Source of the DNA: Oceanobacillus caeni | Lineage (GTDB): Bacteria > Bacillota > Bacilli > Bacillales > Amphibacillaceae | Length of the DNA: 64,000 bases | NCBI RefSeq assembly: GCF_019037185.1 | Contig: NZ_JAHHXM010000003.1 | Coordinates: 62,001-126,000, forward strand | Direction: 5' to 3' | Shown here: positions 2,841 through 49,940 of the stretch, piece by piece | Numbering within the stretch: the stretch's first letter is position 1 | How the letters are laid out: each line of letters starts with the position of its first letter | The notes under the pieces: generated by a model | Seen by the model: the letters and a program-made list of their open reading frames with translations, nothing else | Told to the model about the DNA's origin: nothing | Database searches by the model: none | Position numbers and translations under genes: made by a program

Positions 2841-2990
2841 GATAGTTCAAGAAAGGCGGTAAAAATGATACTTCGAATTTCTTACAAAAACTCTCATACT
2901 CCTATGTAGGGCAGCGTTGCAATGACGAATAATTGGAGTCCAAAGATGTTGTGTTTTTACCGACTCGATCCTTTTTGAACACACACTATT
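2841..2990 (+). repeat. Dispersed repeat family C, copy 1
   Basis: The copy is bounded by a left end GATAGTTCAAGAAAGGCGG and a right end CCTTTTTGAACACACACTA. These ends are roughly inverted (TTCAA-AAAG versus CTTTTTGAA). The interior contains CCTATGTAGG and GCAGCGT-like words shared with the copy at 49780. It separates ypiF from qcrA and has no coding potential. Confidence 0.75.
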
Positions 2991-2993
2991 CAT

Positions 2994-3455
2994 TTACCAA
3001 TACGAACGAATTAGTTCACTTATTTCTGAAACCTGCCCACGAACCATTTGTTGTACTTCCTTAGATATTAAGTCTGAAGTCGGAAACCCTGGTAACCATA
3101 TTAAAGTACCCTCTAAATCTTTTTCAACTTTTTTCCATTGCGAATCAAATGTAATGAAAAATATATGTTTAAAGGGCTGTTCCTGGACATTCGCCACCCA
3201 TAAATTCAAGCGGTCTTTTTCCAGTTCTAAATCACTTGCTTTTATATAGTGATAATTAGGAGTTAATAAAAGCCTACCTGAGAGTTCCTTTTCCATTTCT
3301 GTTAGAAAAAGAGCAAGAGCCTCATTTTGAAATGAATCTTTTGATAGTTCTTGATCCTTAGCCATTTGAAATGGAATTAATGGGATGATTACCGTATCTA
3401 TGTATTCTTTTGCTTCAACATATTGCTCCATGTCATTCTTTCTCCATTTCACCAT
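2994..3455 (-). CDS. ypiF: YpiF family protein (DUF2487)
   Basis: This 153-residue cytosolic protein occupies the ypiF position between qcrA and ypiB and resembles the DUF2487 family throughout. No catalytic motif is visible and the function is unknown. I chose the ATG ending at 3455 because AAAGGAGG lies just upstream; the frame stays open for eight more codons without a better ribosome site. The start begins MVKWRKNDMEQYVEAKEY. The gene is separated from ypiB by a terminator, so it may be transcribed alone. The left side is bounded by a family C repeat. Confidence 0.85.
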   Translation of the reverse strand: MVKWRKNDMEQYVEAKEYIDTVIIPLIPFQMAKDQELSKDSFQNEALALFLTEMEKELSGRLLLTPNYHYIKASDLELEKDRLNLWVANVQEQPFKHIFFITFDSQWKKVEKDLEGTLIWLPGFPTSDLISKEVQQMVRGQVSEISELIRSYW

Positions 3456-3522
3456 ACATCCTCCTTTCTGAACACGCATCTATTTGAAATTTCAATATAC
3501 ATCTTATCTTAAAACAAAAAAA

Positions 3523-3557
3523 AATCAACCTTATTGCTTTTGCAATCTGGGTTGATT
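3523..3557 (-). terminator. Terminator overlapping the ypiB stop
   Basis: AATCAACC and GGTTGATT form an outer stem and ATTGC/GCAAT an inner stem. On the minus strand a run of nine T follows. The ypiB stop codon (3531-3533) lies inside the hairpin. Confidence 0.8.
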
Positions 3558-4103
3558 AAACATTTTCTCTAATTCATTTAATTCCTTCGATAGTTTAATA
3601 AACTTCTCTTGATCCAATTCATCTAGAGCATTATCAATTTCTTGTTGAAGTATTTTCTTTTTATAATTAAAAACGGTTTTATCTAATAACTTTTTAGCCA
3701 ATAATCTATCTTTTTTTGTAACAAAATAATCATCTGGTACGAATGGATTCTCTTCTATGACAGAAGCATAGTAAGCATGCTGATGGGACTTACTAAAGTT
3801 TAGTTGAATATATAAATCCTCGTCTTGATTCATACGAATATCATGAAATGACTTTTCAGCATCTGTCGTAACTATGTGATCTTTATAAAATCGAAAAGGA
3901 ACCTCAGAAGAACATTGACTCGTTATCACTATACCTCTAGGACAAAACTTTACATCTCTAACAAAATGCACTTTGTTTAAGACTTGTTGATGGTTAAGAA
4001 TATAATTCAATATCCAAACGCTCTCTCTTTTCTTTAATTGATAATTTTTTAAAAACCACTGAATAAAACTTTTTTTGTCTTGGCGAGAGATAGGAGTATT
4101 CAT
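3531..4103 (-). CDS. ypiB: YpiB/ReoY family protein (UPF0302 plus IDEAL domain)
   Basis: This 190-residue protein has an N-terminal UPF0302 domain (about 5-115) and a C-terminal IDEAL-type segment (about 143-182, LQQEIDNALDELDQEKF). The Listeria homologue ReoY takes part in regulated ClpCP degradation of MurA, the first committed enzyme of peptidoglycan synthesis; a similar role here is inference from homology. It lies 21 bases downstream of ypiA and is probably cotranscribed with it. A ribosome site AGGAGG precedes the ATG. Length is normal for the family. Confidence 0.88.
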   Translation of the reverse strand: MNTPISRQDKKSFIQWFLKNYQLKKRESVWILNYILNHQQVLNKVHFVRDVKFCPRGIVITSQCSSEVPFRFYKDHIVTTDAEKSFHDIRMNQDEDLYIQLNFSKSHQHAYYASVIEENPFVPDDYFVTKKDRLLAKKLLDKTVFNYKKKILQQEIDNALDELDQEKFIKLSKELNELEKMFNQPRLQKQ

Positions 4104-4124
4104 TTAGTTCCCTCCTTTAATCCA

Positions 4125-5399
4125 TTATATATCGTCTTCACTTGTTTGTTTCAAACGATAAAGAAATTCTTCCATTTCAGCATCTAAAGGTACGATGGAA
4201 AGGTATGATTTTAATACTGGTATTGCTTGTTCTATCCTCCCTTCTTCCGTTAGAAAATAGCCATATTCTTTCAAGAAGTCACTATCTTGATTTAAACCAT
4301 TATATGCTTCATTATAGTGTTTTAATGCATTATCAAATGATTCTATTTCATTATTTGCTCGGGCTAATTCCCAGTCATACAAGGAATCCACTGCTCCAGT
4401 TCTTTTTATTTCATTAAGCAAATCAATAATTTTCTCATGTTCATCCAAGTTTTTGTAATGATCCACCAAGGATAATACGGCTTGTTTATAATCTGGATCT
4501 AACGCAATTGCCTCTCTTAAATATGTTTCCACTTCTTTTGTATTATTTAGTTTATTGGCAACCATTGCTGTTATAAAAAATAATTCTTTATTAAATTCAT
4601 CAAATTGCAGACCTTTTTGGGCCGTATGAACTGCTTCATCTAATCTCCCCTCATCTTCATACGCCTGTGCTAAATGTTGGTATACTGTGTGATAATACGG
4701 ATCAAGCTCAACGACTTTTTCCCAAGCCTTTATAGCAATATCCACTCTGTCTGCTTGATATGCAATAATTCCATAACGATAAAGATAATCAGGATCTTTT
4801 TGATCATTGTCCTGATAGTAGGTTAAAGCTTTTTCGTATTCGCCAATCGCCGCATTTGCTTCTCCCAATCGGCTTAAAAGAGAAATGTTTCCCACTTCCT
4901 CCACTTTTACTTTTTCGTAGTATAAAATCGCCTTTTTATACTCTCCGATTGAAAAGTATAATTCCCCTAATGCAAAGTCAATAATTTCCTCGTTAGGTTC
5001 TAATTGTTTTGCTTTTAATAACTTCTGCTCAGCTACCTCAAATAACCCTTGTGCTTGATATAAATCTGCTAATTGGATTAGAGCTTGGGTATAAGCAGTA
5101 TCCCCTTCGTTGACTTGATTCAGTAACTCCATAGCTTGTTCGTCTTCTTCTATTTCAATATAAATCTCTGCAAGTGTAATTAATATTTCACTTTCGGTAG
5201 GATATTTTTGCAGTAATTTATGTAAAATCGTGCTCGCTTCTTGTAAAAAACCTATTTGCATATACATTTGTGCAATCGTAAATTTTTCGTCATCACTTGC
5301 TTTTGACTCATACTGTTTTAATAATTGTATTGCTTTTTCGGCTTGATTATTCTCCAATAATTGATATGCTTCAAGTATGGTGTCCATTTGTACACTCAT
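4125..5399 (-). CDS. ypiA: TPR-repeat protein YpiA
   Basis: The 424-residue protein is built almost wholly of tetratricopeptide repeats. About ten helix pairs are visible with typical spacing, for example ALIQLADLYQAQGLFEVAEQ near 105 and VYQHLAQAYEDEGRLDEAVH near 240. It has no signal peptide or membrane segment, so it is probably a cytosolic scaffold. It sits in the conserved place between aroA and ypiB and most likely works with YpiB. No enzymatic motif is present. Confidence 0.9.
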   Translation of the reverse strand: MSVQMDTILEAYQLLENNQAEKAIQLLKQYESKASDDEKFTIAQMYMQIGFLQEASTILHKLLQKYPTESEILITLAEIYIEIEEDEQAMELLNQVNEGDTAYTQALIQLADLYQAQGLFEVAEQKLLKAKQLEPNEEIIDFALGELYFSIGEYKKAILYYEKVKVEEVGNISLLSRLGEANAAIGEYEKALTYYQDNDQKDPDYLYRYGIIAYQADRVDIAIKAWEKVVELDPYYHTVYQHLAQAYEDEGRLDEAVHTAQKGLQFDEFNKELFFITAMVANKLNNTKEVETYLREAIALDPDYKQAVLSLVDHYKNLDEHEKIIDLLNEIKRTGAVDSLYDWELARANNEIESFDNALKHYNEAYNGLNQDSDFLKEYGYFLTEEGRIEQAIPVLKSYLSIVPLDAEMEEFLYRLKQTSEDDI

Positions 5400-5516
5400 C
5401 CTTTCATTTGATTAAGTAAAACTTATAAGACGATCTATAGGTATATTATATTTTAATTAACACGCTTTGTCTCAGCTAGATTCTAACATAATATGAAAAT
5501 TTTATTCTAAAAGGAA

Positions 5517-5544
5517 AAAGAGCCTACAAAAAGGTAAGCTCTTT
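5517..5544 (-). terminator. Terminator of the aro operon
   Basis: AAAGAGC pairs with GCTCTTT with one mismatch before a three-pair inner stem. T-rich sequence follows on the minus strand. It lies between the aroA stop and ypiA. Confidence 0.7.
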
Positions 5545-5551
5545 TTTAATT

Positions 5552-6838
5552 CTATATTAAGGAATTCAAATGATCAAAGAAACTTGGGTATGAGATAGAT
5601 ATGGATGATGCATCATCTATTGTAACATGATCGTTTGCAACTAGTGAAGCGATTGCGCTCATCATAGCTATTCTATGGTCGTGATATGATAATACTTTTC
5701 CACCTTTTAATGGGGTTTTTCCTTTGATAATTATACCGTCTTCTGTTCCTTGAATGTTTGCGCCTAAAGTAGATAAAACATCAACTACTGCCGCAATTCT
5801 GTCTGTTTCCTTTACCCTTAATTCTTCCGCATCTTTAATGACTGTCTCCCCATTAGCTTGTGAAGCTAATAAGGCAATAATTGGAATCTCATCAATTAAT
5901 CTAGGAATAATCTCCCCGTCAATCGTTATTCCATTAAGTTCTGAATGGCGGATTGTAATATCCCCAATCCATTCCCCACTAACGAATCGTTTATTTTTAA
6001 TTTCAAGGTCTGCGCCCATTTTTAATAAAACATCAATAATCCCTGTTCTAGTTTCATTCAATCCTACATTTTTTAAGGTAATTTCGCTGCCTGGAACAAT
6101 GGCACCTGCTACAAGGAAAAAAGCTGCAGATGAAATATCGCCTGGCACTTGTACATCTGAAGCAATTAGTTCGTTATTACTCGTTACCGTTGTAGATAAA
6201 CCATTTCTAGTAATATCTGCTCCAAATGCTTCGAGCATATTTTCTGTATGATCTCTCGTTCCAATTTTTTCAATTACTTTCGTTTTACCCTCTGCGAATA
6301 AACCTGCTAATAATACAGCGGATTTTACTTGTGCGCTTTTTACAGGTAATGTATATTCGATTCCTCTAAGCTTTTTTCCCCGAATAGAAAGTGGTAAAAG
6401 CTTACCATCATTTCTTCCATCAATCGTTGCATCCATTTCGCGAAGTGGGTTTACAACCCGATCCATTGGGCGCTTTGTAAGAGACTCGTCTCCATAAATG
6501 GTAGTAAATAGGTTTAATCCTGATAGTATTCCAAGCATTAATCTTGTTGTTGTCCCTGAATTACCAAAATATAAAGGCTCTTTTGGTTCCTCTAACGCAG
6601 AAAAGCCTTTACCATGAATCGTAACAGTGGATCCCTCTTGCGTAATCGGAACACCCATAGATTGAAAAGCATGAATCGTACGCAAACAATCTTCGCCATC
6701 TAAAAAGTTAGTGATTTTAGTTACACCATTGGCTAAGGAACCTAAAATAATCGCACGATGTGAAATGGACTTGTCACCAGGTACTTTTATCTCTCCAGAT
6801 AAAGAATGATTACAAGGTGCTAGTGTTACTTCTACCAT
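5552..6838 (-). CDS. aroA: 3-phosphoshikimate 1-carboxyvinyltransferase (EPSP synthase)
   Basis: This enzyme joins shikimate 3-phosphate and phosphoenolpyruvate, the penultimate step to chorismate. Diagnostic motifs are PGDKSISHR near the start, GNSGTTTRLMLG near 95, and RVKETDRI and DHRIAMM towards the end. The B. subtilis name is aroE. The frame also has a GTG at 6850, but GGGAA sits directly against it, so I prefer the ATG ending at 6838 (428 residues), although its spacing is long. It is last in aroC-aroB-aroH-tyrA-aroA, only 20 bases past the tyrA stop. Confidence 0.95.
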   Translation of the reverse strand: MVEVTLAPCNHSLSGEIKVPGDKSISHRAIILGSLANGVTKITNFLDGEDCLRTIHAFQSMGVPITQEGSTVTIHGKGFSALEEPKEPLYFGNSGTTTRLMLGILSGLNLFTTIYGDESLTKRPMDRVVNPLREMDATIDGRNDGKLLPLSIRGKKLRGIEYTLPVKSAQVKSAVLLAGLFAEGKTKVIEKIGTRDHTENMLEAFGADITRNGLSTTVTSNNELIASDVQVPGDISSAAFFLVAGAIVPGSEITLKNVGLNETRTGIIDVLLKMGADLEIKNKRFVSGEWIGDITIRHSELNGITIDGEIIPRLIDEIPIIALLASQANGETVIKDAEELRVKETDRIAAVVDVLSTLGANIQGTEDGIIIKGKTPLKGGKVLSYHDHRIAMMSAIASLVANDHVTIDDASSISISYPSFFDHLNSLI

Positions 6839-6859
6839 GTTTCTTTTCACTTCCCTTAC

Positions 6860-7960
6860 TTATTCTTGAATCGTTGCTTCGTATCCATGATTCGCTAAAA
6901 TATTTAGGCTATTTTGTTGTGTTTCTTTTGTATAGAAGCTTAAACGTAATGCTCCAGTTATACCTTCCCTAATCTCTAAAATTTCAATGTTTTTAATACT
7001 TATCTTCATATTTGCTAACAGTAATACTATTGATGCAATAGCACCTGGTTTATCGGCAATATCAACATAAATATCATAAAAACCTGGAATCGCTCCCTTA
7101 TCCTTAACAGGCAATCCATCTCGATAATTTTTGGCATTCGTTAAATATGTAATCATTTCTTGTTTTTCATTATTTTCAACAAGAGATTTTATATCTGTCA
7201 TCTCTTGTATCCAGCCTTCTAATAATTTTAAAAGCTTCTTGCGATTATGATAAAAAATATCCTGCCATAACTCTGGATTACTGGAAGCAATCCTAGTAAT
7301 ATCACGGAATCCCCCCGCTGCAAGATTCGGTAAAAAAGAGTGAGTTTCTTGCCATTTTCTTGCTTGATGAACGAGTGATGAAGCAATTAAATGTGGAAAA
7401 TGAGAGACAACCCCAGTCATTTCGTCATGTTCGTCTGAATTAAGTACAACAAATTGACATTTTGTTTGTTTTAAAATTTCTTTCAGAGTCTTTACATGTG
7501 CTTCTTTACTGCGTATAGATGGAGTAAGAACATAAATTGCGTTTTCAAACAAATGTTCCTTCGCTGCTTCCACCCCTTTTTTATGAGAACCGGCCATAGG
7601 ATGCCCACCTATAAATACAACCTTCTCATTTTGTATTTGTTTCGCAGACTCTATGATAGATCCCTTAACGGATGATGTATCAGTCACAATTACTTCTTTC
7701 GTTAAAGAAATTGTATCTAGTTCCTTTAGTAATCTAATAGTTTCTGATATAGGAGCGGCAAGGATAATAATATCTGCATGTTGGGCTGCTTCACTGAAAT
7801 TTGTACTAGCCTCATGAATCATTCCATTATGTAATGCAAATTCTAAGCTATCCTCTTTTACATCAAATCCTATAACATGATTTTCGTTTGTTTTTGATAT
7901 ATTGATTGCAAGAGAGCCTCCAATTAGACCTAATCCCGCAATTAAAATTGTTTGATTCAA
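6860..7960 (-). CDS. tyrA: Prephenate dehydrogenase with C-terminal ACT domain
   Basis: The 366-residue enzyme oxidises and decarboxylates prephenate to 4-hydroxyphenylpyruvate in tyrosine synthesis. A Rossmann motif GLGLIGGS lies at 9-16, the catalytic-domain signature GGHPMAGSHKKG near 120, and an ACT regulatory domain occupies about 295-366 (YDIYVDIADKPGAIA). It starts 2 bases after the aroH stop. In B. subtilis the trp genes and hisC lie between aroH and tyrA; here they are directly adjacent. Confidence 0.95.
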   Translation of the reverse strand: MNQTILIAGLGLIGGSLAINISKTNENHVIGFDVKEDSLEFALHNGMIHEASTNFSEAAQHADIIILAAPISETIRLLKELDTISLTKEVIVTDTSSVKGSIIESAKQIQNEKVVFIGGHPMAGSHKKGVEAAKEHLFENAIYVLTPSIRSKEAHVKTLKEILKQTKCQFVVLNSDEHDEMTGVVSHFPHLIASSLVHQARKWQETHSFLPNLAAGGFRDITRIASSNPELWQDIFYHNRKKLLKLLEGWIQEMTDIKSLVENNEKQEMITYLTNAKNYRDGLPVKDKGAIPGFYDIYVDIADKPGAIASIVLLLANMKISIKNIEILEIREGITGALRLSFYTKETQQNSLNILANHGYEATIQE

Positions 7961-7962
7961 AC

Positions 7963-8331
7963 TTATTCACCCTTAATTAAATCTGGTCTTAGTTTTACTG
8001 CTTCATTATGATAAATATGATGGATTTCTTCCTGCGGTGTCGTTGTATTGGTTACCATCATGATCCGAATGCATCTTTCAAGACTGTTAGGTACATCGAT
8101 TTCTGCCATACACATGACCGGAACATATTTCCACCCTTCAATAGTCCTTAATACTTTTGCGGGGAAAGTAGCCGTTAAATCTTTAGTGACAGAAATAAAC
8201 ACATGGGATACATCATGTGCTTGTACCCTATTTTCCTCTATCATTTCTTCTAGTAAGTTTTTTGTGACATCTAAAATTTCCTTTTCATCATTAGCAAGCG
8301 CTGTAGTTGCCCCACGTATCCCCCGCGTCAT
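7963..8331 (-). CDS. aroH: Chorismate mutase, AroH type
   Basis: This 122-residue protein is the monofunctional AroH-fold chorismate mutase, which converts chorismate to prephenate. The start TRGIRGATTALAN is the family signature, with the arginine of the GIRGATT motif contributing to the active site, and FISVTKDLTATFPA follows. Its ATG overlaps the aroB stop as ATGA, which points to translational coupling. It directly precedes tyrA, so the two enzymes act in sequence. Confidence 0.96.
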   Translation of the reverse strand: MTRGIRGATTALANDEKEILDVTKNLLEEMIEENRVQAHDVSHVFISVTKDLTATFPAKVLRTIEGWKYVPVMCMAEIDVPNSLERCIRIMMVTNTTTPQEEIHHIYHNEAVKLRPDLIKGE

Positions 8332-9398
8332 CTTATCACCTTTTCCATAAACGATTGTAAGTATGAATCAATTACTTCATCATCAAAATCTTTCACAGTT
8401 GGTTTACCGACTTTCTCCAATAAGACCATTTGTATTTTTTTATTCGTAGCTTTTTTATCCGATTTCATTCGTTCGACTAATTTTTTACTGGTACATTCCC
8501 TTATATCAAGTGGATAATCATTGTTTTTAAACCAAGTAAGTAAGGATTCAAGAGGTAAATCAACCTCAAACTCTTTATTGCTTACATATAGTGCAAACAA
8601 CAAGCCTATTGCAACTGCTTCTCCATGAGTTAATTTTCCATAACTCAATTCTGCTTCAATTGCATGACCTAATGTATGACCTAAGTTTAAATATTTTCTC
8701 ACACCCGACTCATTTTCATCTTCTTCCACAATTTTCGCCTTTACTTTAATACCAAATGATAAATGTTTCTTTAATTCATCTTTTGAAATTTCGTTTAATC
8801 GTATATTCATTAATTGATTAAAAGTAGACTCGTTAGAAATTAGAGCTTCTTTAACTAATTCAGCATATCCGGAACGTATTTCTATATCACTTAGTGTTGA
8901 TAATGTTTCCACATCGTAAATAACAGCTACTGGGGAATTAAAGTTACCAATCATGTTCTTGCCGAGTTCATGATTAATAGCTACTTTTCCGCCCACACTA
9001 CTATCATGTGCTAGAATGGTAGTAGGAACTTGGATAAAATCTATACCACGCATATATGTAGCAGCCACAAATCCAGCTAAGTCTCCTACAACTCCCCCAC
9101 CTAAAGCAATTACAAGGGATTGACGATCTAATCCATATTGAATAGCATCCGTATGTAACTGATAAAAGACATCTATGTTCTTTGATTGTTCACCAGCCGG
9201 AATGATGGATACATAAACCTTCTCATTCGCTAGACTTTCTTTAACCGCATCAAGGTGTAATTTAGCTACCTTATCATCTGTGATAATTAAGATAGATGAA
9301 TATTTTTTTGTTAAATATTGATGAAGGGTATATCTAATACCCTCACCAATCATTATTTTATATTCATGTGTACTGGACTTAACTTCAAGCTTTTCCAT
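8328..9398 (-). CDS. aroB: 3-dehydroquinate synthase
   Basis: This enzyme cyclises DAHP to 3-dehydroquinate using NAD and a divalent metal. Motifs are ALGGGVVGDLAGFVAATYMRG near 100 and GHTLGHAIE near 240, whose histidines bind the metal. The longest frame begins with a GTG at 9407, but AAGGTG is correctly spaced for the ATG ending at 9398, which also overlaps the aroC stop as TAATG. With this start the protein has 356 residues. It is second in the aro operon and overlaps aroH by four bases. Confidence 0.95.
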   Translation of the reverse strand: MEKLEVKSSTHEYKIMIGEGIRYTLHQYLTKKYSSILIITDDKVAKLHLDAVKESLANEKVYVSIIPAGEQSKNIDVFYQLHTDAIQYGLDRQSLVIALGGGVVGDLAGFVAATYMRGIDFIQVPTTILAHDSSVGGKVAINHELGKNMIGNFNSPVAVIYDVETLSTLSDIEIRSGYAELVKEALISNESTFNQLMNIRLNEISKDELKKHLSFGIKVKAKIVEEDENESGVRKYLNLGHTLGHAIEAELSYGKLTHGEAVAIGLLFALYVSNKEFEVDLPLESLLTWFKNNDYPLDIRECTSKKLVERMKSDKKATNKKIQMVLLEKVGKPTVKDFDDEVIDSYLQSFMEKVIR

Positions 9399-10567: not shown

Positions 10568-10620
10568 CTTACATTCTCCTTTTCCACGCATATTATTAGA
10601 ATGCTAAATATTTTCTAACT

Positions 10621-10651
10621 ACTATAGCATATATTCTATTATTTGTGATAA
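10621..10651 (-). promoter_or_regulatory. Possible promoter of the aro operon
   Basis: On the minus strand TATAGT (10621-10626) is preceded by TGC, an extended -10 element. A weak TTATCA lies 19 bases further upstream. It is about 54 bases from the aroC TTG start. Confidence 0.4.
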
Positions 10652-10704
10652 AAATTTTAGAAATAAATTAACTTTTAATAGCTGAAATGTTAAACTAACA
10701 AAAA

Positions 10705-11484: not shown

Positions 11485-11516
11485 TGAACCACTCCCTATA
11501 CTTTCCTACTAAAAAA

Positions 11517-11538
11517 CCTCCGTCACATCAAACGGAGG
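11517..11538 (-). terminator. Terminator of ndk
   Basis: CCTCCGT and ACGGAGG form a 7-bp stem with an 8-base loop. A run of six T follows on the minus strand. Confidence 0.85.
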
Positions 11539-11547
11539 TATACTAAA

Positions 11548-11994: not shown

Positions 11995-12026
11995 AAATCT
12001 ACACCCCTATATGTATTATACTAGAC

Positions 12027-12130: not shown

Positions 12131-12151
12131 TTATTAGAAAATAACAACATA

Positions 12152-32053: not shown

Positions 32054-32059
32054 TTAAAG

Positions 32060-32229
32060 AAGTTGTTCAAAAAGTCCGGTAAAAATAACATGCCACTAAA
32101 AGGAGGAAGCGTGCTTTTAGTCTGCCTTCCTTTAAAGAAGTTCGTTAGCGATGGCGGGACTTCTACTAAGGGACGCCCACGTCTATGGGCAACGTAGAAG
32201 TCCTTTTCATCCTCCTTTTTGAACATACA
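32060..32229 (+). repeat. Dispersed repeat family C, copy 2
   Basis: The left end is AGTTGTTCAAAAAGTCCGG and the right end CTTTTCATCCTCCTTTTTG followed by AACATAC. Internal inverted segments (AGGAAGCG/TGCCTTCC, GGGACTTCTAC/GTAGAAGTCC) give it strong secondary structure. A short open frame across it is an artefact. Confidence 0.8.
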
Positions 32230-32241
32230 ATTAAAGTAAAA

Positions 32242-38040: not shown

Positions 38041-38139
38041 AGTGCATGTTCAATAATGTATTTCTTTTCAAGGAGCAAGGAGTCTTGCCGACTTGTAACA
38101 TCAAAGGGTCATTTTCACGGGACTTTTTGAACAACCCTT
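38041..38139 (-). repeat. Dispersed repeat family C, copy 3 (inverted)
   Basis: On the minus strand it begins AGGGTTGTTCAAAAAGTCC and CGTGAAAATGA and ends ATTGAACATGCACT. It lies right against the resE stop codon. Confidence 0.7.
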
Positions 38140-40685: not shown

Positions 40686-40735
40686 AAGAGGTTGTTCAAA
40701 AAGTCCTTTTCATCCTCTTTTTGAAAACACACTAT
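40686..40735 (+). repeat. Minimal, internally deleted copy of repeat family C
   Basis: The left end GAGGTTGTTCAAAAAGTCC is joined directly to a right end TTTTCATCCTCTTTTTGAA plus ACACACTAT. The roughly 100-base interior seen in the other copies is gone, leaving a 50-base near-palindrome. Confidence 0.75.
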
Positions 40736-40743
40736 AAAGAAAC

Positions 40744-40768: not shown

Positions 40769-40777
40769 TGTACACTT

Positions 40778-41968: not shown

Positions 41969-42000
41969 AAAAAATTCCTCCTTGATCACTGCGAGAAAGA

Positions 42001-43650
42001 TTAATTATCTTTTTCGCCAAGTTCTTGCTGATCTTCAACCATTTTAATATTTGTATTTTCGGTTACAGTTTCTATATCTTTCTTTAAGCCAAACCAATTT
42101 TTATTTGTATGGGCTGCCATTACCAATGAACCATCTTTTCTCTTATGGATCCATATTCTTCTATGTTGCCAATACATACCTTGAATGACACCAATCATAA
42201 AAATAACTGCACCAATACCAAAAAACGGTAAGGATCGATCGTACTTGAATGTTAGACCACTAACATCGTGCATCTCAAAATCCTCGATACCTAGCTTATA
42301 TTTATTTTCCCCTGTTCCATCTATATTTCTTCCAATTCCAACAAAACTTACCTCAGGTTTTTCACTATCCTCACTGTAAACGGAAAATACAAAAGCAGGA
42401 TTTCGTGGAAAATTGGTTTCAGAAGCTGGTATCCCATTATCATCTAAATAATAGTCTGGATAAAATTGATCCAAAACAACTTTAAAGCCATTACCAAGAT
42501 CAAATTCAGGTTGAGGATTTCTTAAATCAACTGTAAAAGACCCTAATGATTTCTCGTCTGCATCCGATGTTTCATGTATTTTAAATGTCATCGAAGAAAA
42601 TTCATTTAGTTGATACCCTGATTGAATTAAATCATATCCGTCGAAACTCAAAGGTTTATTCATTTGAATGGAATCCTCTACGACTGGCTCTAGTTCTGGT
42701 TCTTCACCGGGAATAGATCGATTTGCTTTATACACGACTACATCTGTTTGATAATTGCTAGCAACCATTCCTTCTTTACTTAAAGCGTCCTTAAATCTTT
42801 CATCATTTTCATCATGTGTCTCAAAAATAAAGTCTTTATTTTCAACATAATACTCTCCATTTGTACCAGGTAAAACCTCTGTTTCCCCTTCACGTACCCA
42901 AACATATTCATTCATAAAAAATAATGGGGTCGAACGTAAAATAGCTGCTATAAGGATAATGATTAAGCCAATATGGTTGACATATGGCCCCCACCTAGAG
43001 AATCGCCCTTTTTCTGCTAAAAGATAACCATCTTTCTCTTTAATATTATAACGACGTTTCTTTAATTGTTTTTTTACCGTTTCCAATTCTTCATCAGTGG
43101 CTGATTCAGTTTCGCTATATAACCGTTGTCTACTTAAAAAAGATTGATGTTTTTTTGGATTTTGATGTCTTAATGCTCTAAAAAGTGGTACAAATCTATC
43201 TAAACTACAAATAACTAATGATACCCCAATTAAAGCAATAAGTAACAAATACCACCACGATGAGTATAAATTATGTAAGCCTAGTTGATAGTATATAAGA
43301 CCCAACACACCGTATTGACTTTCGTAGAATACAGCTGGATCACGATTTGGTGTATTTGCAGGTATGTACATTTCTTGCGGGAAAATGGTACCAATCATAG
43401 AAGCAATTAAAGCTAAGACAATTAACCATACCCCTACTTTAACAGAAGAAAAGAAACTCCAAATTCGATCCACAACGGATTTAGTATACGTTTTGGATCG
43501 CCTTGCTGTTCCATCATAACGCATATTTAATAGTTTTTTTCCTTCATTACCATCAATATGTTGGTTTTCCTCTATAGGCTTTCCACAGGATTCACAAAGT
43601 ACGGTACCTAATGGATTAACATGACCACAATCACATTTAATTTGTTTCAT
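42001..43650 (-). CDS. resB: Cytochrome c biogenesis protein ResB (Ccs1)
   Basis: ResB is the partner of ResC in heme ligation. The 549-residue protein begins with a zinc-ribbon-like [17 protein letters not shown] motif, then has three membrane helices in the first 220 residues, a large extracytoplasmic domain, and a last helix near 490 ([16 protein letters not shown]). The start ATG ending at 43650 follows a GAGGGA site. A family D repeat lies between it and resA, widening the gap to 164 bases. Confidence 0.93.
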
Positions 43651-43689
43651 TATTGATCCCTCACGTTTTATCGATAATGTAAAGTTCAA

Positions 43690-43812
43690 CATATTCAGTA
43701 GAGTTTTCTTCCATCTTAATATGAATTGAACTAATCAGGGCTCTTCTGGCTATCCACCGCCACTTATAATTCTAGTTTTAAATAGGTGGTTACGACCAGT
43801 TAAGACGTGGTA
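43690..43812 (+). repeat. Dispersed repeat family D, most complete copy
   Basis: It runs from CATATTCAGTAGAG through CTTCCATCTTAATATG, CTAATCAGGGCTCTTCTGGC and TAGGTGGTTACGACCAG to TTAAGACGTGG. Fragments of the two ends recur at 18697, 26151 and 26427. It lies between resA and resB, inside what is a single operon in B. subtilis. Confidence 0.65.
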
Positions 43813-43814
43813 AT

Positions 43815-44387
43815 TTATTCTGGTAAAATATTTTGCAATGATCGCTCTAACTTTTCTAATGTTAGTGCTCCATTTACAACTTCTTTAATTTTGCCATCTG
43901 GACCAATAAAAAATGTACTTGGAATCGGTCCAACTTTGTATAGATCTCTAATTTCACCAGTTGTATCGTGTAATACTGGGAACGTTAAATCATGTTTATC
44001 AATAAAGCGGTTAATTACCAATTCCGTATTATCTAAACTAACCGCGAGAATCTCGATTCCTTTATCATGATACTCCGGGTATAAAGTTTCCATATAAGGC
44101 ATTTCAGCTTCACATGGCTTACACCAAGTTCCCCAAAAGTTCAGCATTACCCCTTTTCCCTTTAAATCACTTAATTGAACGCTTTCTAAATTATTATTAT
44201 GACTTACCTGTTTCAATTGGAAGTCTGGAGCGGTATCCCCAGCACGATAAATAGAATTATCTGCTTTAGAATTAGAAACAATAGCAAAAATAGTGGCTCC
44301 AATTAAGACTACTAAAATGATAGATCGAAAAATTAATCGATTTCTTTTTTTAGTTTTCTTTGACTCTTTTTTATTTTCCAAACTCAA
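43815..44387 (-). CDS. resA: Thiol-disulfide oxidoreductase ResA
   Basis: ResA reduces the CxxCH cysteines of apocytochrome c before heme attachment. An N-terminal membrane anchor (about 20-40) precedes an extracytoplasmic thioredoxin fold with the redox pair Cys89-KP-Cys92 (TWCKPCEAEMP). Two in-frame TTG codons could start it; AAGGAGTGA is better spaced for the one ending at 44387 (190 residues). It heads the res cluster after rluB. Confidence 0.93.
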   Translation of the reverse strand: MSLENKKESKKTKKRNRLIFRSIILVVLIGATIFAIVSNSKADNSIYRAGDTAPDFQLKQVSHNNNLESVQLSDLKGKGVMLNFWGTWCKPCEAEMPYMETLYPEYHDKGIEILAVSLDNTELVINRFIDKHDLTFPVLHDTTGEIRDLYKVGPIPSTFFIGPDGKIKEVVNGALTLEKLERSLQNILPE

Positions 44388-44454
44388 TTTCAATCACTCC
44401 TTATGCGAGTATAACATTTTTTAAGAAGATGAAATTTGTCAATAATTCAACATT

Positions 44455-45192
44455 TTAATTTTGATTTGCCAAGTTATACATTTGTTTAACCTCTTTAGGA
44501 GTTAATGGACGGTATTCACCACGTTTTAAACCATCTAAATTTAAAAAACCATATCTTTCTCTCTTTAATTTAACTACAGGGAAACCTAACCCTTCCATCA
44601 TTCTTCTTACATGCCTATTTTTCCCTTCATGAAGCGTTAGTTCAATAACCGTAGTTTCTGCCTTTTTATCTGTTGATACAATTCTATAATCTACAGCCTT
44701 AAGTAAATCTTTTTCGGATTTTACCCCTTTTTTAAGTTGCATTAAATCAGCTTTTTTAAGTATTCCTTTTACTTTAGCTACATATACCTTATCAATTTGA
44801 TGTCTTGGATGCATAAGTAAGTTAGCAAAATCACCATCGTTTGTCAGTAAGATAATTCCCGAAGTATCATAATCTAGCCTTCCTATTGGAAATACACGTT
44901 CCTCTACTTCTTCACTAAGTAAATCTGTAATTACCTTTCTTCCTTTATCATCTTTAACACTAGAGATAACTCCACGTGGTTTATACATAAGAAAATAAAC
45001 TGGCAACTCTTTTTCGAGCGGAATCCCTTCCACTTCTACCTTGTCATGGTTAGACACTTTCGTACCTAAAACTGTTACCACTTCTCCGTTTACTTTTACC
45101 TTTCCGTCTAAAATTAATTGTTCTGCTTTTCTTCTAGAAGTTACTCCACTTTGAGCTATAACTTTTTGAAGTCTTTCCAAGTTGTTTGTCAT
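44455..45192 (-). CDS. rluB: 23S rRNA pseudouridine synthase RluB
   Basis: This 245-residue enzyme modifies 23S rRNA (E. coli position 2605). An S4 RNA-binding domain (1-60, ERLQKVIAQSGVTSRRKAEQL) precedes the catalytic domain with GRLDYDTSGIILLTNDG, whose aspartate is the nucleophile, and HEGKNRHVRRMME. Length and order are typical. It sits between spmB and resA as in B. subtilis. Confidence 0.95.
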   Translation of the reverse strand: MTNNLERLQKVIAQSGVTSRRKAEQLILDGKVKVNGEVVTVLGTKVSNHDKVEVEGIPLEKELPVYFLMYKPRGVISSVKDDKGRKVITDLLSEEVEERVFPIGRLDYDTSGIILLTNDGDFANLLMHPRHQIDKVYVAKVKGILKKADLMQLKKGVKSEKDLLKAVDYRIVSTDKKAETTVIELTLHEGKNRHVRRMMEGLGFPVVKLKRERYGFLNLDGLKRGEYRPLTPKEVKQMYNLANQN

Positions 45193-45233
45193 TATATCAC
45201 CATTCTTATTATTATTATTTTCATAAATAATAA

Positions 45234-45258
45234 TAGCGTTAACATCATGTTAACGCTA
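45234..45258 (-). terminator. Terminator of the dacB-spmAB operon
   Basis: TAGCGTTAAC and GTTAACGCTA form a perfect 10-bp stem with a 5-base loop. The tail on the minus strand is AT-rich but short of T runs. Confidence 0.75.
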
Positions 45259-45268
45259 CTTTTTAGCA

Positions 45269-45802
45269 TTACCCAAATATAAGGGTAACAATTATGATTG
45301 ATGCAATTATACCAACTAAATCCGCTAAGAGTCCAACTTTTACAGCATATCTCATCTTTTTAATCCCTACCGCACCAAAATATACAGTTAATATGTACAA
45401 AGTGGTGTCTGTACTTCCTTGCATAGTTGACGCAAGTCTGCCGATAAAAGAATCAGGTCCATGTGTTGCAATTAATTCGGAAGTAACCCCCAAGGCTGCA
45501 TTTCCGGAAATGGGTCTAACAAGTGCTAATGGGACAATATCCGGGGGAATTCCTATTGCAGTTAGTATGGGAGCAATTAAACCAATAGATGCATCCAAGG
45601 CCCCGGAACTCCTTAAAATAGAGATGGCGACCAACATTCCAACTAAAAAAGGAAGTAAAGAAAATGCTAATTGAACACCTTCCTTTCCTCCTTCAACGAA
45701 TAATTCGTATGATGGAAGCTTTTTCCACTGTGCAACTCCTAGGACTAATAATAAAAAGCAAGGAATAAGCCAAGTGCTTATAGTAGTGACAATTCCCATC
45801 AT
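45269..45802 (-). CDS. spmB: Spore maturation protein B
   Basis: SpmB is a 177-residue membrane protein of the nucleoside-recognition (Gate) family, with about five helices and the motif LVRPISGNAALGV near 90. With SpmA it is needed for full spore core dehydration and heat resistance in B. subtilis; the transported molecule is unknown. Its start overlaps spmA by four bases (ATGA), implying stoichiometric synthesis. It ends the dacB-spmA-spmB operon. Confidence 0.93.
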   Translation of the reverse strand: MMGIVTTISTWLIPCFLLLVLGVAQWKKLPSYELFVEGGKEGVQLAFSLLPFLVGMLVAISILRSSGALDASIGLIAPILTAIGIPPDIVPLALVRPISGNAALGVTSELIATHGPDSFIGRLASTMQGSTDTTLYILTVYFGAVGIKKMRYAVKVGLLADLVGIIASIIIVTLIFG

Positions 45803-46386
45803 TCCTTCCTCCTAAGGCTTCTGTAATAAAAGAAACGGTCCAATAATAATGCACTAGTTAATGCAGCGGCGGAAGCAATAATAGTAGTACCAACAATTTC
45901 AGTAGGTGAGCTGGAGTTGTATTGCATCCGAATGGCGATTACTGTTGATGGGATTAAAGTTAAGCCTGCAGTGTTTATAGCTAAAAATGTGATCATGGAA
46001 CGAGATGCAGTATCTGTTCCGCTTAACTTTTTCATCTCTTCCATCGCTTTTATTCCAAGTGGTGTGGCTGCATTTCCTAGACCAAATATATTCGCTGTAA
46101 AATTGGATAAAATGTACCCCATTGCTGGATGATCTTTCGGAATCTCTGGAAATATTTTTACTACAATCGGACGTAACAGTTTTGCAAGCACTCTTAATAT
46201 ACCTGCTTCCTCTGCTATTTTCATAATCCCTAACCAAAACACTAGAATACTAATTAACCCAATAGATAGTTTTACAGCTTCATCCGCGCTTTCAAATAGA
46301 GCTTTGTTGACTTCTTCCATCGTTCCATTAAACATCGCATAAATAATACCAACTATTGCCATAAATGCCCATATTAAATTAACCAT
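45799..46386 (-). CDS. spmA: Spore maturation protein A
   Basis: SpmA is the paired membrane protein (195 residues, nucleoside-recognition family) with motif NIFGLGNAATPLGIKAMEE near 95. It is 6 bases after dacB and overlaps spmB by four bases. Acting with DacB and SpmB in the developing spore, it affects core water content. No truncation is seen. Confidence 0.93.
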   Translation of the reverse strand: MVNLIWAFMAIVGIIYAMFNGTMEEVNKALFESADEAVKLSIGLISILVFWLGIMKIAEEAGILRVLAKLLRPIVVKIFPEIPKDHPAMGYILSNFTANIFGLGNAATPLGIKAMEEMKKLSGTDTASRSMITFLAINTAGLTLIPSTVIAIRMQYNSSSPTEIVGTTIIASAAALTSALLLDRFFYYRSLRRKE

Positions 46387-46392
46387 ATATAT

Positions 46393-47520
46393 CTACATCC
46401 CTGTTACTTTTTTATAAAATGAGAGGATTTCTGACATGAATGATTTCTTATTTGCATCTGATGAAACAGAGTCTTCAACCGCATATATTGGTGTTTCTGT
46501 AATTTCTTTATCATTTAAGTAGAATACTTTTTTTCCGATTATGTTATCTCCTGATGATGTATCAACATCTTTTAAAATATAATTCTTAAATGTTACGATA
46601 TCCTCTTCATCGTCGGATAACGGATAATGAATTTTATCTCGTAAAAATCCTATTTGACTTTTATTTAAGTCTATTAAATTAAATTTTACTTCTCCTTTGT
46701 CTGTTAATGTTTTCATATCAAAGTTTTCAAAACCCCATTCATATAAGGACATATGATCTTTCCAGTCATCAGGTGCATTTAACGTGACGGCAATTAAATC
46801 CATACCGTCTTTACTAGCTGTTGAAACAAGCGTCCTTCCCGTTTTCTTTGTAAAACCGGTTTTTCCACCTGTACAATATTCATAATACTGAGTTAACAAT
46901 TTATTTTTGTTTATCCAACTGTATGTTCTTCCATCTGATTTATAAGAAGTAGTGCCTGATATTTCTCTATACTTCTCATTATTCATCGCATATTGCGTTA
47001 ATATCGCCATATCATATGCACTAGAATAATGATTATCTGAATCAAGACCATGTGGGTTATCGAAATGAGTATTTTCCATTCCTAACCATTTTGCCTTTTC
47101 ATTCATGAGGTAGACAAATCCATCTAAACTACCTCCAACATGCTCGGCAATTGCCACCGCGGCATCATTACCAGACCGAAGCATTAACCCATAAACTAAA
47201 TCCTCTAGCGTCATTTTTTCACCTTGTTCTAAATAAATAGAGGACCCCTCTGTATAAATTGCTTCTCTACTTACAGTCACTTTTTCTTTCATTTTTCCCG
47301 ATTCAATTGCAATAATTGCCGTCATAATTTTAGTAATACTGGCGATGGATTCTTGGGAATGTGCATCTTTTTCGAATAATACTCGTCCAGTTGATTGTTC
47401 TATTAATACAGCATTATTTGCTGATACACCCGGTGCGGCAGAAGCTGCTTGTCCATTTGTAGAGATTAGCAAATTAGCAGCAAAGAATATTACGGTTAGT
47501 AATAAAATCTTTATTTTCAT
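46393..47520 (-). CDS. dacB: D-alanyl-D-alanine carboxypeptidase DacB (PBP5*)
   Basis: DacB trims peptide side chains in the spore cortex and so controls crosslinking. A signal peptide ends near residue 28; the active-site SITK, the SGN motif (RSGNDAAVA) and KTG (GGKTGFTKKTG) are present. GGGAGG precedes the ATG ending at 47520 (375 residues). It heads the dacB-spmA-spmB operon. A sigma-E-like promoter lies about 40 bases upstream. Confidence 0.94.
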   Translation of the reverse strand: MKIKILLLTVIFFAANLLISTNGQAASAAPGVSANNAVLIEQSTGRVLFEKDAHSQESIASITKIMTAIIAIESGKMKEKVTVSREAIYTEGSSIYLEQGEKMTLEDLVYGLMLRSGNDAAVAIAEHVGGSLDGFVYLMNEKAKWLGMENTHFDNPHGLDSDNHYSSAYDMAILTQYAMNNEKYREISGTTSYKSDGRTYSWINKNKLLTQYYEYCTGGKTGFTKKTGRTLVSTASKDGMDLIAVTLNAPDDWKDHMSLYEWGFENFDMKTLTDKGEVKFNLIDLNKSQIGFLRDKIHYPLSDDEEDIVTFKNYILKDVDTSSGDNIIGKKVFYLNDKEITETPIYAVEDSVSSDANKKSFMSEILSFYKKVTGM

Positions 47521-47555
47521 TTTTGGTTGTCCTCCCACGTGTATGGTATCCATAC

Positions 47556-47583
47556 ATTTTATGCATCAAATGAAGTGATATGA
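47556..47583 (-). promoter_or_regulatory. Candidate sigma-E promoter of dacB
   Basis: On the minus strand TCATATC (47577-47583) and CATAAAAT (47556-47563) are 13 bases apart. This fits the sigma-E pattern, and dacB is sigma-E controlled in B. subtilis. Confidence 0.5.
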
Positions 47584-47630
47584 GCAATTTTCTTATTTAA
47601 TGTTAATGTGATAAATCCTACCTACCAAAA

Positions 47631-47661
47631 AATCCATACATTAAAATTTAATGTATGGATT
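47631..47661 (-). terminator. Terminator of scpAB
   Basis: AATCCATACATTAAA pairs perfectly with TTTAATGTATGGATT, followed by a T run on the minus strand. Confidence 0.9.
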
Positions 47662-47663
47662 CA

Positions 47664-48257
47664 TCATTCATTCTTATTCAGTTCTTCATTAAAATGTTCA
47701 AAAAATAAATCCGCTTCTTGATTCACTTCACTCGAATCGGAAACTTCATCCGGAAGAGAGGGTAACTCCTCTAGTGAAGTTAAACCGAAATAAGTAAGGA
47801 AATCTTTACTTGTTCCATACAAGATAGGTCTACCAACACTATCTTTTCTTCCGATTTCTTCAATTAACGATTTCGCTACAAGGGATTGAAGCGGACGATC
47901 ACTCTTAACTCCACGTAATTCTTCAATTTCAGCTTTTGTAATTGGTTGTCTATAGGCAATGATTGCTAAAGTTTCAAGTGCTGCTTGAGACATTCGATTG
48001 GAATTTGGTGTTTCCAACAACTTTTTATAAAATTCACTATGCTCAGGTTTCGTGGTAAGATGAAGTACACCCTTTGATTCCATCATCATGATACCTCGAT
48101 CTATTCGTTCATAATCGTATTTCAATTCTTCAATTAAGTGGGCAATCATTTCATCCGTGATATTTAAAATATTCTTCAATTGTTTGACTGTTATTCCGTC
48201 ATCACCACTTGCAAAAATTAAACCTTCAACAACAGCCTTCCATTCTGTAACTTCCAA
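47664..48257 (-). CDS. scpB: Segregation and condensation protein B
   Basis: ScpB is the winged-helix kite subunit of the SMC-ScpAB condensin that compacts and separates chromosomes. The 197-residue protein has the family motif ETLAIIAYRQPITKAEIEELRGV near 105-127 and an acidic C-terminal tail. It follows scpA by 2 bases. Confidence 0.95.
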   Translation of the reverse strand: MEVTEWKAVVEGLIFASGDDGITVKQLKNILNITDEMIAHLIEELKYDYERIDRGIMMMESKGVLHLTTKPEHSEFYKKLLETPNSNRMSQAALETLAIIAYRQPITKAEIEELRGVKSDRPLQSLVAKSLIEEIGRKDSVGRPILYGTSKDFLTYFGLTSLEELPSLPDEVSDSSEVNQEADLFFEHFNEELNKNE

Positions 48258-48259
48258 AA

Positions 48260-49000
48260 TTATTCCTCCATAGAAAATACATATAACGTATCAAAATGTT
48301 GTTTTTGTTTACAATAAACCTCATGAACTTTCATTAATTCTAATATAGCAATGAAAGTAATAACAATGTGCGTTTTAGAAGGATATGGAAATAATTGATC
48401 AAAAGCAACACCATGATGAGATTTTTTAACCATTTTTAATACATCCTTCATTCGCTTTTCAATTGGAATCTCCGCTCTACTAACCTTCGTATCAAGTGGT
48501 TGATCCCATTTCTTTCTTTGAAACATTTTACCTAACGCATTGATCATGTCATATACCGATACATTCCCTTTAGAAACTGTTGTTTTATCCTGTATTAGTT
48601 CGTCAAATACAACAGGTGGCCTTGTATACGTATGAATGGCTTCTTCTTCTCTTTCTTTTAATTTTTCCGCTGCTTGTTTATATTTCCGATATTCAATTAA
48701 CCGATTCATTAATTCTTCTCTCGGGTCTTCTACGTATTCATCCGTTTCATCAACTATTTCCTGTTTTGGTAATAACATTTGACTTTTAATTGCAACAAGA
48801 GTCGAGGCCATCACTAAATACTCACTTGCAATATTTAACTCTAAATATTTCATCGTATGTATATAATCCAAATATTGTTTTGTGATTTCAGCCATCGGGA
48901 TGTCATAGATATCTATCTCATATTTATTTATTAAATGTAGCAATAAATCTAGTGGTCCTTCAAAGACATCTAACTTTACTTCGTAGGCTTGGTTCACCAT
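48260..49000 (-). CDS. scpA: Segregation and condensation protein A
   Basis: ScpA is the kleisin that bridges the SMC heads. The N-terminal signature FEGPLDLLLHLI is at 13-24 and the C-terminal winged-helix region (VITFIAILELMKVHEV) near 212-227. Length 246 is normal. It heads scpA-scpB. The ribT neighbourhood on the other side is shared with B. subtilis. Confidence 0.95.
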   Translation of the reverse strand: MVNQAYEVKLDVFEGPLDLLLHLINKYEIDIYDIPMAEITKQYLDYIHTMKYLELNIASEYLVMASTLVAIKSQMLLPKQEIVDETDEYVEDPREELMNRLIEYRKYKQAAEKLKEREEEAIHTYTRPPVVFDELIQDKTTVSKGNVSVYDMINALGKMFQRKKWDQPLDTKVSRAEIPIEKRMKDVLKMVKKSHHGVAFDQLFPYPSKTHIVITFIAILELMKVHEVYCKQKQHFDTLYVFSMEE

Positions 49001-49050
49001 ATTTCTTACCTCTCTTTAGTTGCAATTTTAAGTTTTCGTGCTATTCGCCC

Positions 49051-49080
49051 ATACAACATGGTAAATACCAACATAAGTTA
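49051..49080 (+). promoter_or_regulatory. Candidate sigma-K promoter of the YjcZ-type gene
   Basis: AC (49053-49054), a 17-base spacer and CATAAGTTA (49072-49080) fit the late mother-cell pattern AC-N16/17-CATAnnnTA. It is about 60 bases upstream of the ATG. Confidence 0.4.
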
Positions 49081-49090
49081 TTAATGTAAG

Positions 49091-49113
49091 ACAAATGTTT
49101 ATAAAACATTTGT
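49091..49113 (+). repeat. Inverted repeat in the YjcZ leader
   Basis: ACAAATGTTT-ATA-AAACATTTGT is a perfect 10-bp inverted repeat ending 15 bases before the GGAGG site. In the leader RNA it would form a hairpin just upstream of the ribosome site, which could stabilise the message. Confidence 0.6.
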
Positions 49114-49141
49114 TGAAGAAGAAAAAAGGAGGAATTTGTTT

Positions 49142-49225
49142 ATGAGTCATGGATATAGCGGAGGATTCGCGTTAATCGTTGTATTGTTTATTCTTCTAAT
49201 CATTGTTGGTGCCGCTTGGTTCTAA
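49142..49225 (+). CDS. YjcZ-type sporulation peptide, 27 residues
   Basis: The peptide reads MSHGYSGGF, then a single hydrophobic helix (ALIVVLFILLIIVGAAWF). This is the YjcZ family of tiny sporulation membrane proteins, which usually start with Tyr/Gly/Cys and end with an LFILLIIVG helix. AAAAAGGAGG lies 8 bases upstream. It is divergent from scpA with a sigma-K-like promoter. Function is unknown in the family. It is far shorter than ordinary gene-finding limits. Confidence 0.85.
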   Translation: MSHGYSGGFALIVVLFILLIIVGAAWF

Positions 49226-49234
49226 AATATATTA

Positions 49235-49310
49235 AGAAAAGCGTAAGCGCCCGTTTAGCAAAGTACGGTGAAGGAAGTCTCGCTAGTCGCTGGGTGCTGG
49301 AGCTAGACAT
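49235..49310 (+). repeat. Dispersed repeat family E
   Basis: AGAAAAGCGTAAGCGCCCGTT through GCTGGGTGCTGGAGCTAGACA matches from memory a repeat widespread in Bacillaceae genomes. Only one copy is seen here. It lies in the 3' untranslated region of the YjcZ gene, before the terminator. Confidence 0.6.
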
Positions 49311-49350
49311 TAAGCAGAAATATTTATATTATTCTATCCGCCAAGTTTTA

Positions 49351-49376
49351 AGCCAGCCCTCAGTGATGGGCTGGCT
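49351..49376 (+). terminator. Terminator of the YjcZ-type gene
   Basis: AGCCAGCCC and GGGCTGGCT form a perfect 9-bp stem, followed by TTTATTG on the plus strand. It lies between the convergent YjcZ gene and ribT and could serve both. Confidence 0.85.
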
Positions 49377-49377
49377 T

Positions 49378-49752
49378 TTATTGTTCTTCATTTTGAATAT
49401 GATTATCTTTACATTTAAGATAGAACTCTTGGACGTCATCACTAGGTAAAACTTTATGTTCTCCGTCATAAAGTTTAATTAGTTCATTTATCATTTTCTT
49501 CCCTATCCCTAGATTCCGATGGGACGGATTAACGGAAACATGTTGGATAATAATGCAATTATTTTCTAACCGAACACCAGCTGCACCTAAGACATCATCG
49601 TCCTCTTTCCATAAATAAAGATTCCAATCAGGATTGGACTCATATTCTTTAATTGTATTCTGTAATTTTTTCACATCATTTTTTACATCTGGCATAAATG
49701 ACAATAATCCCATGGCAATTTTTTCCATATTCTTTTTAAAACGAATTAACAT
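49378..49752 (-). CDS. ribT: GNAT-fold acetyltransferase RibT
   Basis: The 124-residue protein is a GNAT-type acyltransferase. The acetyl-CoA motif is VSVNPSHRNLGIGKKMINEL (about 73-92), and the N terminus (LIRFKKNMEKIAMGLLSFMPD) is typical of RibT. In B. subtilis ribT is the last gene of ribDEAHT. Here no other rib gene and no FMN riboswitch is nearby; a family C repeat lies directly upstream. Its substrate is not established. Confidence 0.88.
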   Translation of the reverse strand: MLIRFKKNMEKIAMGLLSFMPDVKNDVKKLQNTIKEYESNPDWNLYLWKEDDDVLGAAGVRLENNCIIIQHVSVNPSHRNLGIGKKMINELIKLYDGEHKVLPSDDVQEFYLKCKDNHIQNEEQ

Positions 49753-49779
49753 AAAGACCCCTCTTAATAAAGACTAATA

Positions 49780-49940
49780 AAGGTTGTTCAAAAAGATCGG
49801 TGAGAAAGATACTGCGACGTACAGACAACCTTTGCAGCTAACGTCGGTATCCCCCCTATGTAGGAGAAGCGTAGTAATAGGACGTTGCGCATTTAGCTGA
49901 CCTCGGTCCTTTCCATCCTCCTGTTGAACACGCACTAATA
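49780..49940 (+). repeat. Dispersed repeat family C, copy 5
   Basis: Left end AGGTTGTTCAAAAAGATCGG, right end CCATCCTCCTGTTGAACACG plus CACTAATAG. Internal words CCTATGTAGGAGAAGCGT recur in the copy at 2841. A further inverted end-like piece (TTTTGAACATCCTC) follows at 49945-49966. Beyond it, up to 50077, I see only AT-rich DNA. A frame across it is not a gene. Confidence 0.78.

Follow-up and report, generated by a model that had tools for sequence, protein, structure and literature searches.

The window analyzed here (64,000 nucleotides of Oceanobacillus caeni, contig NZ_JAHHXM010000003.1, positions 62,001 to 126,000) carries five copies of a short repeat. With a probability of about 0.9, we conclude that these repeats are non-autonomous DNA transposons of the miniature inverted-repeat transposable element (MITE) type, which insert at TWWWA sites with a 5-bp duplication, share a fold-back core and vary in their interiors by deletion and by inserted hairpin modules. 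A sequence-only reading of the window had suggested a MITE-like family with mutually inverted ends and strongly differing interiors, with copies at 2841, 32060, 38041 (inverted), 40686 and 49780. All five copies turned out to be real, their exact ends being shifted by a few bases, and the MITE interpretation is supported by the inverted repeats, the small size, the copy number, the 5-bp duplications, the empty sites and the lack of long open reading frames (ORFs). Two points are new: the interior of this MITE is ordered, and an RNA family of no known function (Bacillaceae-1) forms one of its parts.

Ends, target-site duplication and copy number

The termini of the element read GAGGTTGTTCAAAAAG...CTTTTTGAACACGCAC and they are flanked by 5-bp direct repeats with the consensus TWWWA. 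The terminal inverted repeats are imperfect. The left end starts with GAGG and the right end, when read inwards, with GTGC, and the left-end word GAGGNTGTTCAAAAAG pairs with a GTGCG partner at the right end. The 'CACACTA-type' right end of the sequence-only reading corresponds to the terminal CAC of the element plus the beginning of the duplicated target. When the source genome (3.57 Mb, 87 contigs) was scanned, the exact 12-mer of the left end was found 53 times compared with 3 times for a reversed control. With up to three mismatches, an 18-mer of the left end occurred 103 times (12 for the reversed pattern) and a 24-mer of the right end 51 times (0 for the control), and thus the inverted ends are above control genome-wide.

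The ends were paired by a script from the window and from 130 source-genome loci, and copies less than 15 bases away from a locus edge were dropped. This procedure gave 81 readings (42 with exact duplications), which correspond to 79 paired source-genome copies after two double readings had been merged. An exact 5-bp duplication flanks 40 of these 79 copies and 62 copies match within one mismatch. In contrast, 2000 shuffles of the right flanks yielded on average 3.6 and at most 11 exact duplications, and direct repeats of other lengths in the same register gave no signal. The target 5-mer starts with T in 71/79 copies and ends with A in 72/79, which defines the target as TWWWA. From 239 further loci (1.30 Mb), most of which were fetched for having a left end and at least one of which (L159) belongs to the source genome, we obtained 162 additional end pairs. 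Here, the duplication was exact in 101 and within one mismatch in 136 cases, and the corresponding shuffles gave a mean of 11.0 and a maximum of 22 exact duplications. The source-genome copies are 38-307 bp long (median 151 bp, 13/79 not exceeding 70 bp). Coding capacity was judged by ORF length: the longest closed ORF in any element comprises 114 amino acids (in a 552-nt composite) and all others have at most 90. The motif CCTATGTAGG (up to one mismatch) is a minority feature, which is present in 7 of the 79 paired source-genome copies, in none of the 162 copies from the other loci and, by eye, in copy A of the window.

Within the window, TTGTTCAAAAAG (up to one mismatch) occurs six times, compared with a mean of 1.38 and a maximum of 5 in 100 shuffles. 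The following features were located:

2839-2986, plus strand: copy A, 148 bp; flanks TATTA/TATTC (4/5 match); carries the minority motif; diverged left end
32059-32230, plus strand: copy B, 172 bp; flanks TTAAA/TTAAA; between gdhA-like and ddl-like genes
32156-32214, minus strand: degenerate Bacillaceae-1-type module in copy B; 24.4 bits, E 0.001 with our own model; undetected by Rfam
38042-38138, minus strand: copy C, 97 bp, inverted; flanks TTTAA/TTTAA; shortly after the stop codon of an ORF for a WalK/PnpS-like histidine kinase
40688-40732, plus strand: copy D, 45 bp, hardly more than the joined ends; flanks TATAA/TATAA; between response-regulator and ccsB-like genes
49780-49935, plus strand: copy E, 156 bp; flanks TAATA/TAATA
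49868-49898, plus strand: weak module fragment (one hairpin) in copy E; 18.3 bits, E 0.022
3457-3480, plus strand: isolated remnant of a right end, which differs from the 24-mer at 3 positions; at the 5' end of a minus-strand ORF (2994-3479)

It can be seen that the direct repeats are exact in four of the five copies. The ends of copy A are diverged (GAGATAGTTCAAGAAA) and were placed by eye, and this copy is not among the 79 script-paired ones. As a side observation, the lone ends at 3457-3480 and in L005 (at 1497) are located just before gene starts, and by eye their AAGGAGG-/GGGGG-like bases may be ribosome-binding sites.

Empty sites and distribution

To find empty sites, we joined the left and right flanks of 241 readings and searched for them in all collected loci. 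We found two clean examples among relatives, in which the filled loci L296 and L146 are matched by L321 (single TAATA) and L378 (single TGGTA), respectively. In a third case of lower identity, the source-genome copy L038 is opposed by an Oceanobacillus rekensis contig (L307), with agreement at 109/140 positions. Three further alignments were ambiguous. These data also bear on the idea that the copies represent extragenic palindromes or terminators that are fixed in place and were spread by descent and not by transposition. The nearly exclusively intergenic location (only 6/243 element readings lie inside an ORF of at least 100 amino acids) and the ability of the unit to fold back would fit such a scenario. 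However, the 5-bp duplications and the empty sites argue against it, as does the absence of a clear strand preference between co-directional genes (68 vs. 81; these counts and the ORF positions rest on 243 readings including two double ones), and we consider descent a very improbable explanation.

The 22-mer of the left end was detected in 73/159 genomes of the same family (25/46 genera) and also in 42/397 genomes drawn from the order (21/135 genera). A scan of named genomes gave at least 116 stretches, and the genera involved include Oceanobacillus, Lentibacillus, Virgibacillus, Gracilibacillus, Lederbergia and Fredinandcohnia. In two Paenibacillus replicons, we found copies whose interiors are diverged and which are flanked on both sides by TTATA or TATAA. 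When plasmids were searched, BLAST with a core copy retrieved a single diverged relative, located on a Paenibacillus replicon, and the left end was found at six places (one of them inspected) of one Paenibacillus replicon. BLAST of the core copy against phages returned a single short match at chance level, and a scan of viral contigs gave no match.

Order in the interior of the elements

The full-length unit is a quasi-palindrome of about 155 nt, which is able to fold end to end. The lengths of the copies from the other loci form clusters (56/162 at 153-157 bp, 35/162 at 212-221 bp, 17/162 at 272-283 bp), and when these copies were aligned to a 156-nt core consensus, 136/162 covered at least 140 core positions. 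Inserts of 30 nt or more were counted 108 times in these 136 copies; 60 of them have a length of 55-62 nt, and the insert sites cluster near core positions 34-44, 66, 94 and 121. In the source genome, the interiors are more decayed than in the other loci, with deletions down to 38 bp. The strong interior differences noted before are explained by such deletions and by inserted hairpin modules including Bacillaceae-1 RNA, and a MITE with a seemingly random interior is shown to have order.

The core fold was analyzed in 25 copies. Here, 95.1% of the cells are paired and 16 of the 38 pairs have changed on both sides. The covariation score of 0.228 compares with 0.092 after shuffling and with at most 0.075 for slid partners, the shuffles taking no account of sequence kinship. 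Two-sided changes are found close to the apex and also close to the ends, and thus co-evolution of two transposase sites is not their whole cause.

Two additional observations concern other inserts. A second module of about 60 nt (a CTTGGAAAAGAAA...CTTTTCC hairpin) is inserted at core positions of about 66 and 94 and had no Rfam match in the ten loci scanned. In the element of L270, a 177-nt insert at core position 120 resembles tandem module copies.

The Bacillaceae-1 module

The inserts of the left arm and of the right arm are one and the same module in opposite orientations. From 54 module sequences, which were picked by their loop pattern, 48 were aligned. The module consists of two hairpins with AGGAC or AGGAT loops and freely varying stems, and the second hairpin lies within a third stem. 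In the alignment, 98.0% of the cells pair, 13/16 pairs have changed on both sides and the covariation score is 0.479 (0.146 when shuffled, again without regard to kinship). In ten chosen loci, 17 of the 19 listed Rfam matches reach the gathering score of RF01690, which identifies the arm module as Bacillaceae-1 RNA. The Rfam strand of this family is opposite to the AGGA strand. The orientation of the modules obeys the dyad symmetry: the 24 modules of the left half point against the element, and those of the right half mostly run along with it (24 parallel, 9 opposite).

Alternatively, the compensatory changes of core and module may have arisen through template switching during replication from one arm of the quasi-palindrome to the other, and would then not reflect selection on structure. 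Near-palindromic DNA gets corrected towards perfect pairing, the unit is a near-palindrome and its members lie on either strand relative to genes. On the other hand, the module loops stay AGGAC or AGGAT while the stems vary, although this constancy is partly by construction because the set was picked by loop pattern. Taken together, we regard template switching as a possible explanation, with the odds somewhat against it.

In the source genome, we detected 31 matches to RF01690, 21 of them above the cut-off, and 16 of these 21 are located between the two ends of an element. The remaining five lie in tRNA clusters (L404, L416) or in other repeat contexts (L411, L413, L419). With our own model, 57/78 matches were inside elements, but this share is biased upwards because the 100 loci searched (of at least 116 from the named-genome scan) had all been chosen for a left end. 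None of the module copies in the window reaches the RF01690 gathering score, and when the entire window was scanned with Rfam (E 1), nothing but three microRNA matches below threshold was returned, since the module is too degenerate there.

RF01690 is present in 121/159 family genomes, often with at least 29 matches each. These per-genome counts were taken among the best 29 scored candidates, and for the source genome 20 matches were counted in this way compared with 31 in the separate scan. When we inspected the best matches of 29 genomes, both element ends were clear around only one of them (L370), L386 was not placed, and the others were located in other repeats or beside rRNA or tRNA genes. 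Hence, the MITE is one vehicle among several. An Rfam family that has been listed since 2010 as likely RNA is thus, in much of its source-genome range, a plug-in module of a mobile element, and this changes the interpretation of its covariation, copy number and positions.

Several observations were made on modules in other surroundings. Strong RF01690 matches at 1501-1567 of L377, L380 and L388 are located in the 16S-23S rRNA spacer on the same strand as the rRNA. In L404, L416 and L426, modules lie between tRNA genes of the source genome, and the stronger match of L426 belongs to a MITE copy, at the same position as L402. The source genome also contains a second repeat backbone (GCGCTTGCGC / GGAGCTGGACGTGG words; L419, L421-L425 and L427-L429 near 1501), the modules of which are Bacillaceae-1-like but have changed loops and mostly do not reach the RF01690 cut-off; two short patterns did not detect this backbone in the window. 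Finally, a hairpin insert of about 33 nt (GGGACGAGTAATCGGAGTCCC-like) is present within the second hairpin of some modules (L406-L410, matches of about 99-103 nt), so that modules occur in modules.

Transposase search and proposed mode of mobilization

We propose that a DDE-type transposase supplied in trans would recognize both ends of the element and that the end bases GTTCAAAAAG would be needed for mobilization. Insertion at AT-rich TWWWA sites duplicates 5 bp, and the copies lose internal DNA, down to 38 bp. Hairpin modules, mostly of 55-62 nt, occupy a small number of favoured positions in both arms, with the Bacillaceae-1 module sitting in the outer arms in mirror-image polarity; the way in which modules would be gained is likewise inferred.

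Which enzyme might act in trans was explored among several transposase families. Matching ends on both sides were absent from 30 of the listed PF01609 matches (ten high-copy genomes), from 30 of the listed PF13751 loci and from six Tn3 loci. A Tn3-type mobilizer is not supported, since PF01526 was found in just 4/10 high-copy genomes and in none of G000, G043, G057, G081, G082 and G086. Pairing of the end positions in G043 and G057 gave no long pair among the matches listed. In L257, 2.7 kb between facing left ends contain, by eye, a 348-amino acid ORF (beta-propeller lactonase-like) and a 450-amino acid transporter-like ORF but no transposase.

The nearest ends at a transposase locus were seen for PF13751, the transposases of which we take to be the IS1182-like family. 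According to this lead, an IS1182-like insertion sequence would be the mobilizer and the MITE its deletion derivative. L225, a PF13751 match, has GGGGCTGTCCAAAAAGTCGG, which by eye shares 16/20 bases with GAGGTTGTTCAAAAAGTCCG, and L201 has GAGGCTGTCTAAAAAGTC on one side. However, L225 lacks a matching 5-bp duplication (ATCAA/TAGTT), no interior sequence common to the IS1182-like loci and the MITE was seen in 30 of the listed matches, and PF13751 was undetected in 7/30 end-carrying genomes including G317 with 48 ends. We therefore consider an IS1182-like origin unlikely and mention it as a lead only.

Several results weigh against the MITE interpretation. Exact duplications are missing in 39/79 source-genome copies and 17/79 are off by more than one base. 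Twelve left ends of the source genome have no right end nearby and several of them abut genes. The Bacillaceae-1 module occurs well beyond the element and is thus not a defining part of it, and kinship is left out of the shuffles behind the pair counts. In addition, no transposase gene bounded by these ends, which the sequence-only reading had proposed to look for, was found in the loci examined, and for this reason movement in trans is inferred only.

Relation to known repeats and RNA families

In the open-licence literature, we found no description of this family, nor of Bacillaceae-1 in connection with a mobile element. According to a review (PMC10969869), bacterial MITEs in general are also short and intergenic, lack a transposase gene, have terminal inverted repeats and target duplications and reach high copy numbers. 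In contrast to them, the interior here consists of a structured core and exchangeable modules, one of which is an Rfam RNA family. Another small, intergenic, MITE-like repeat of Bacilli with an AT-rich TTTAT site motif is bcr1 of the Bacillus cereus group (PMC6542083, PMC3446304). It is, however, described there as specific for the B. cereus group, and the comparison is based on description.

Repeats that insert into one another are described for Streptococcus pneumoniae (BOX, RUP and SPRITE) in PMC10969869. They differ from the present family in sequence and host, and here, too, the comparison is based on description and not on alignment. BOX is built of modules. The arm module belongs to the same family as the Bacillaceae-1 RNA, which is listed by Weinberg 2010 (PMC2864571) as likely RNA that is not cis-regulatory. 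Different from this listing, in the source genome the RNA family mostly resides within a mobile element, and it occurs in both orientations.

Possible relation to CsrA

Gardner and Eldai 2014 (PMC4333381) report a match between a CsrA-binding motif and the reverse complement of Bacillaceae-1. The AGGA strand of our module presents GGA in hairpin loops with conserved pairing, as in CsrA-binding RNA, and csrA was detected in 149/159 family genomes. The elements might thus be kept because their Bacillaceae-1 modules act as RNA, namely as CsrA decoys, which we judge improbable. As a wider and similarly doubtful speculation, Bacillaceae-1 would be a mobile structured module instead of an independent RNA gene; it would be passed among several Bacilli repeat backbones, and its upkeep would depend on CsrA. 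Transposition would seed Csr-type decoy hairpins, and after csrA loss the modules would decay while the MITE persists. The CsrA idea of Gardner and Eldai becomes testable because copies with and without module coexist and csrA-less relatives constitute natural controls.

The evidence is mixed. Eight genomes that lack csrA and are at least 90% complete (G002, G025, G029, G116 and G142 were excluded for falling below this limit) were compared with the csrA-carrying genomes, and genomes without a listed RF01690 match were set to zero. Within genera, csrA-less genomes have fewer RF01690 matches (permutation p 0.00018), the mean being lower in 5/5 genera, and across all genomes a match with E of 1e-9 or lower was found in 2/8 csrA-less and in 97/146 other genomes (Fisher p 0.025). 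However, across all genomes the difference in match number is marginal (median of 3 matches in the 8 csrA-less genomes vs. 8.5 in the 146 others, one-sided p 0.057). Four of the eight csrA-less genomes belong to one genus and may share a single loss, two csrA-bearing species of genus g30 also lack RF01690 matches, and G043 and G057 have kept strong modules without csrA. The orientation data argue against decoys as well. At rRNA and tRNA loci, 11/11 RF01690 matches in eight hand-picked loci are oriented so that the strand running with the stable RNA is the one without AGGA, and one further locus shows the opposite. Beside protein genes, 38 sense and 36 antisense modules indicate no bias, but this near equality is partly due to elements that carry a module in each arm, which are included in the count. 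Finally, the MITE ends show a pattern different from that of the modules, being plentiful in the csrA-less genomes G043 (54), G047 (25), G048 (64) and G057 (84).

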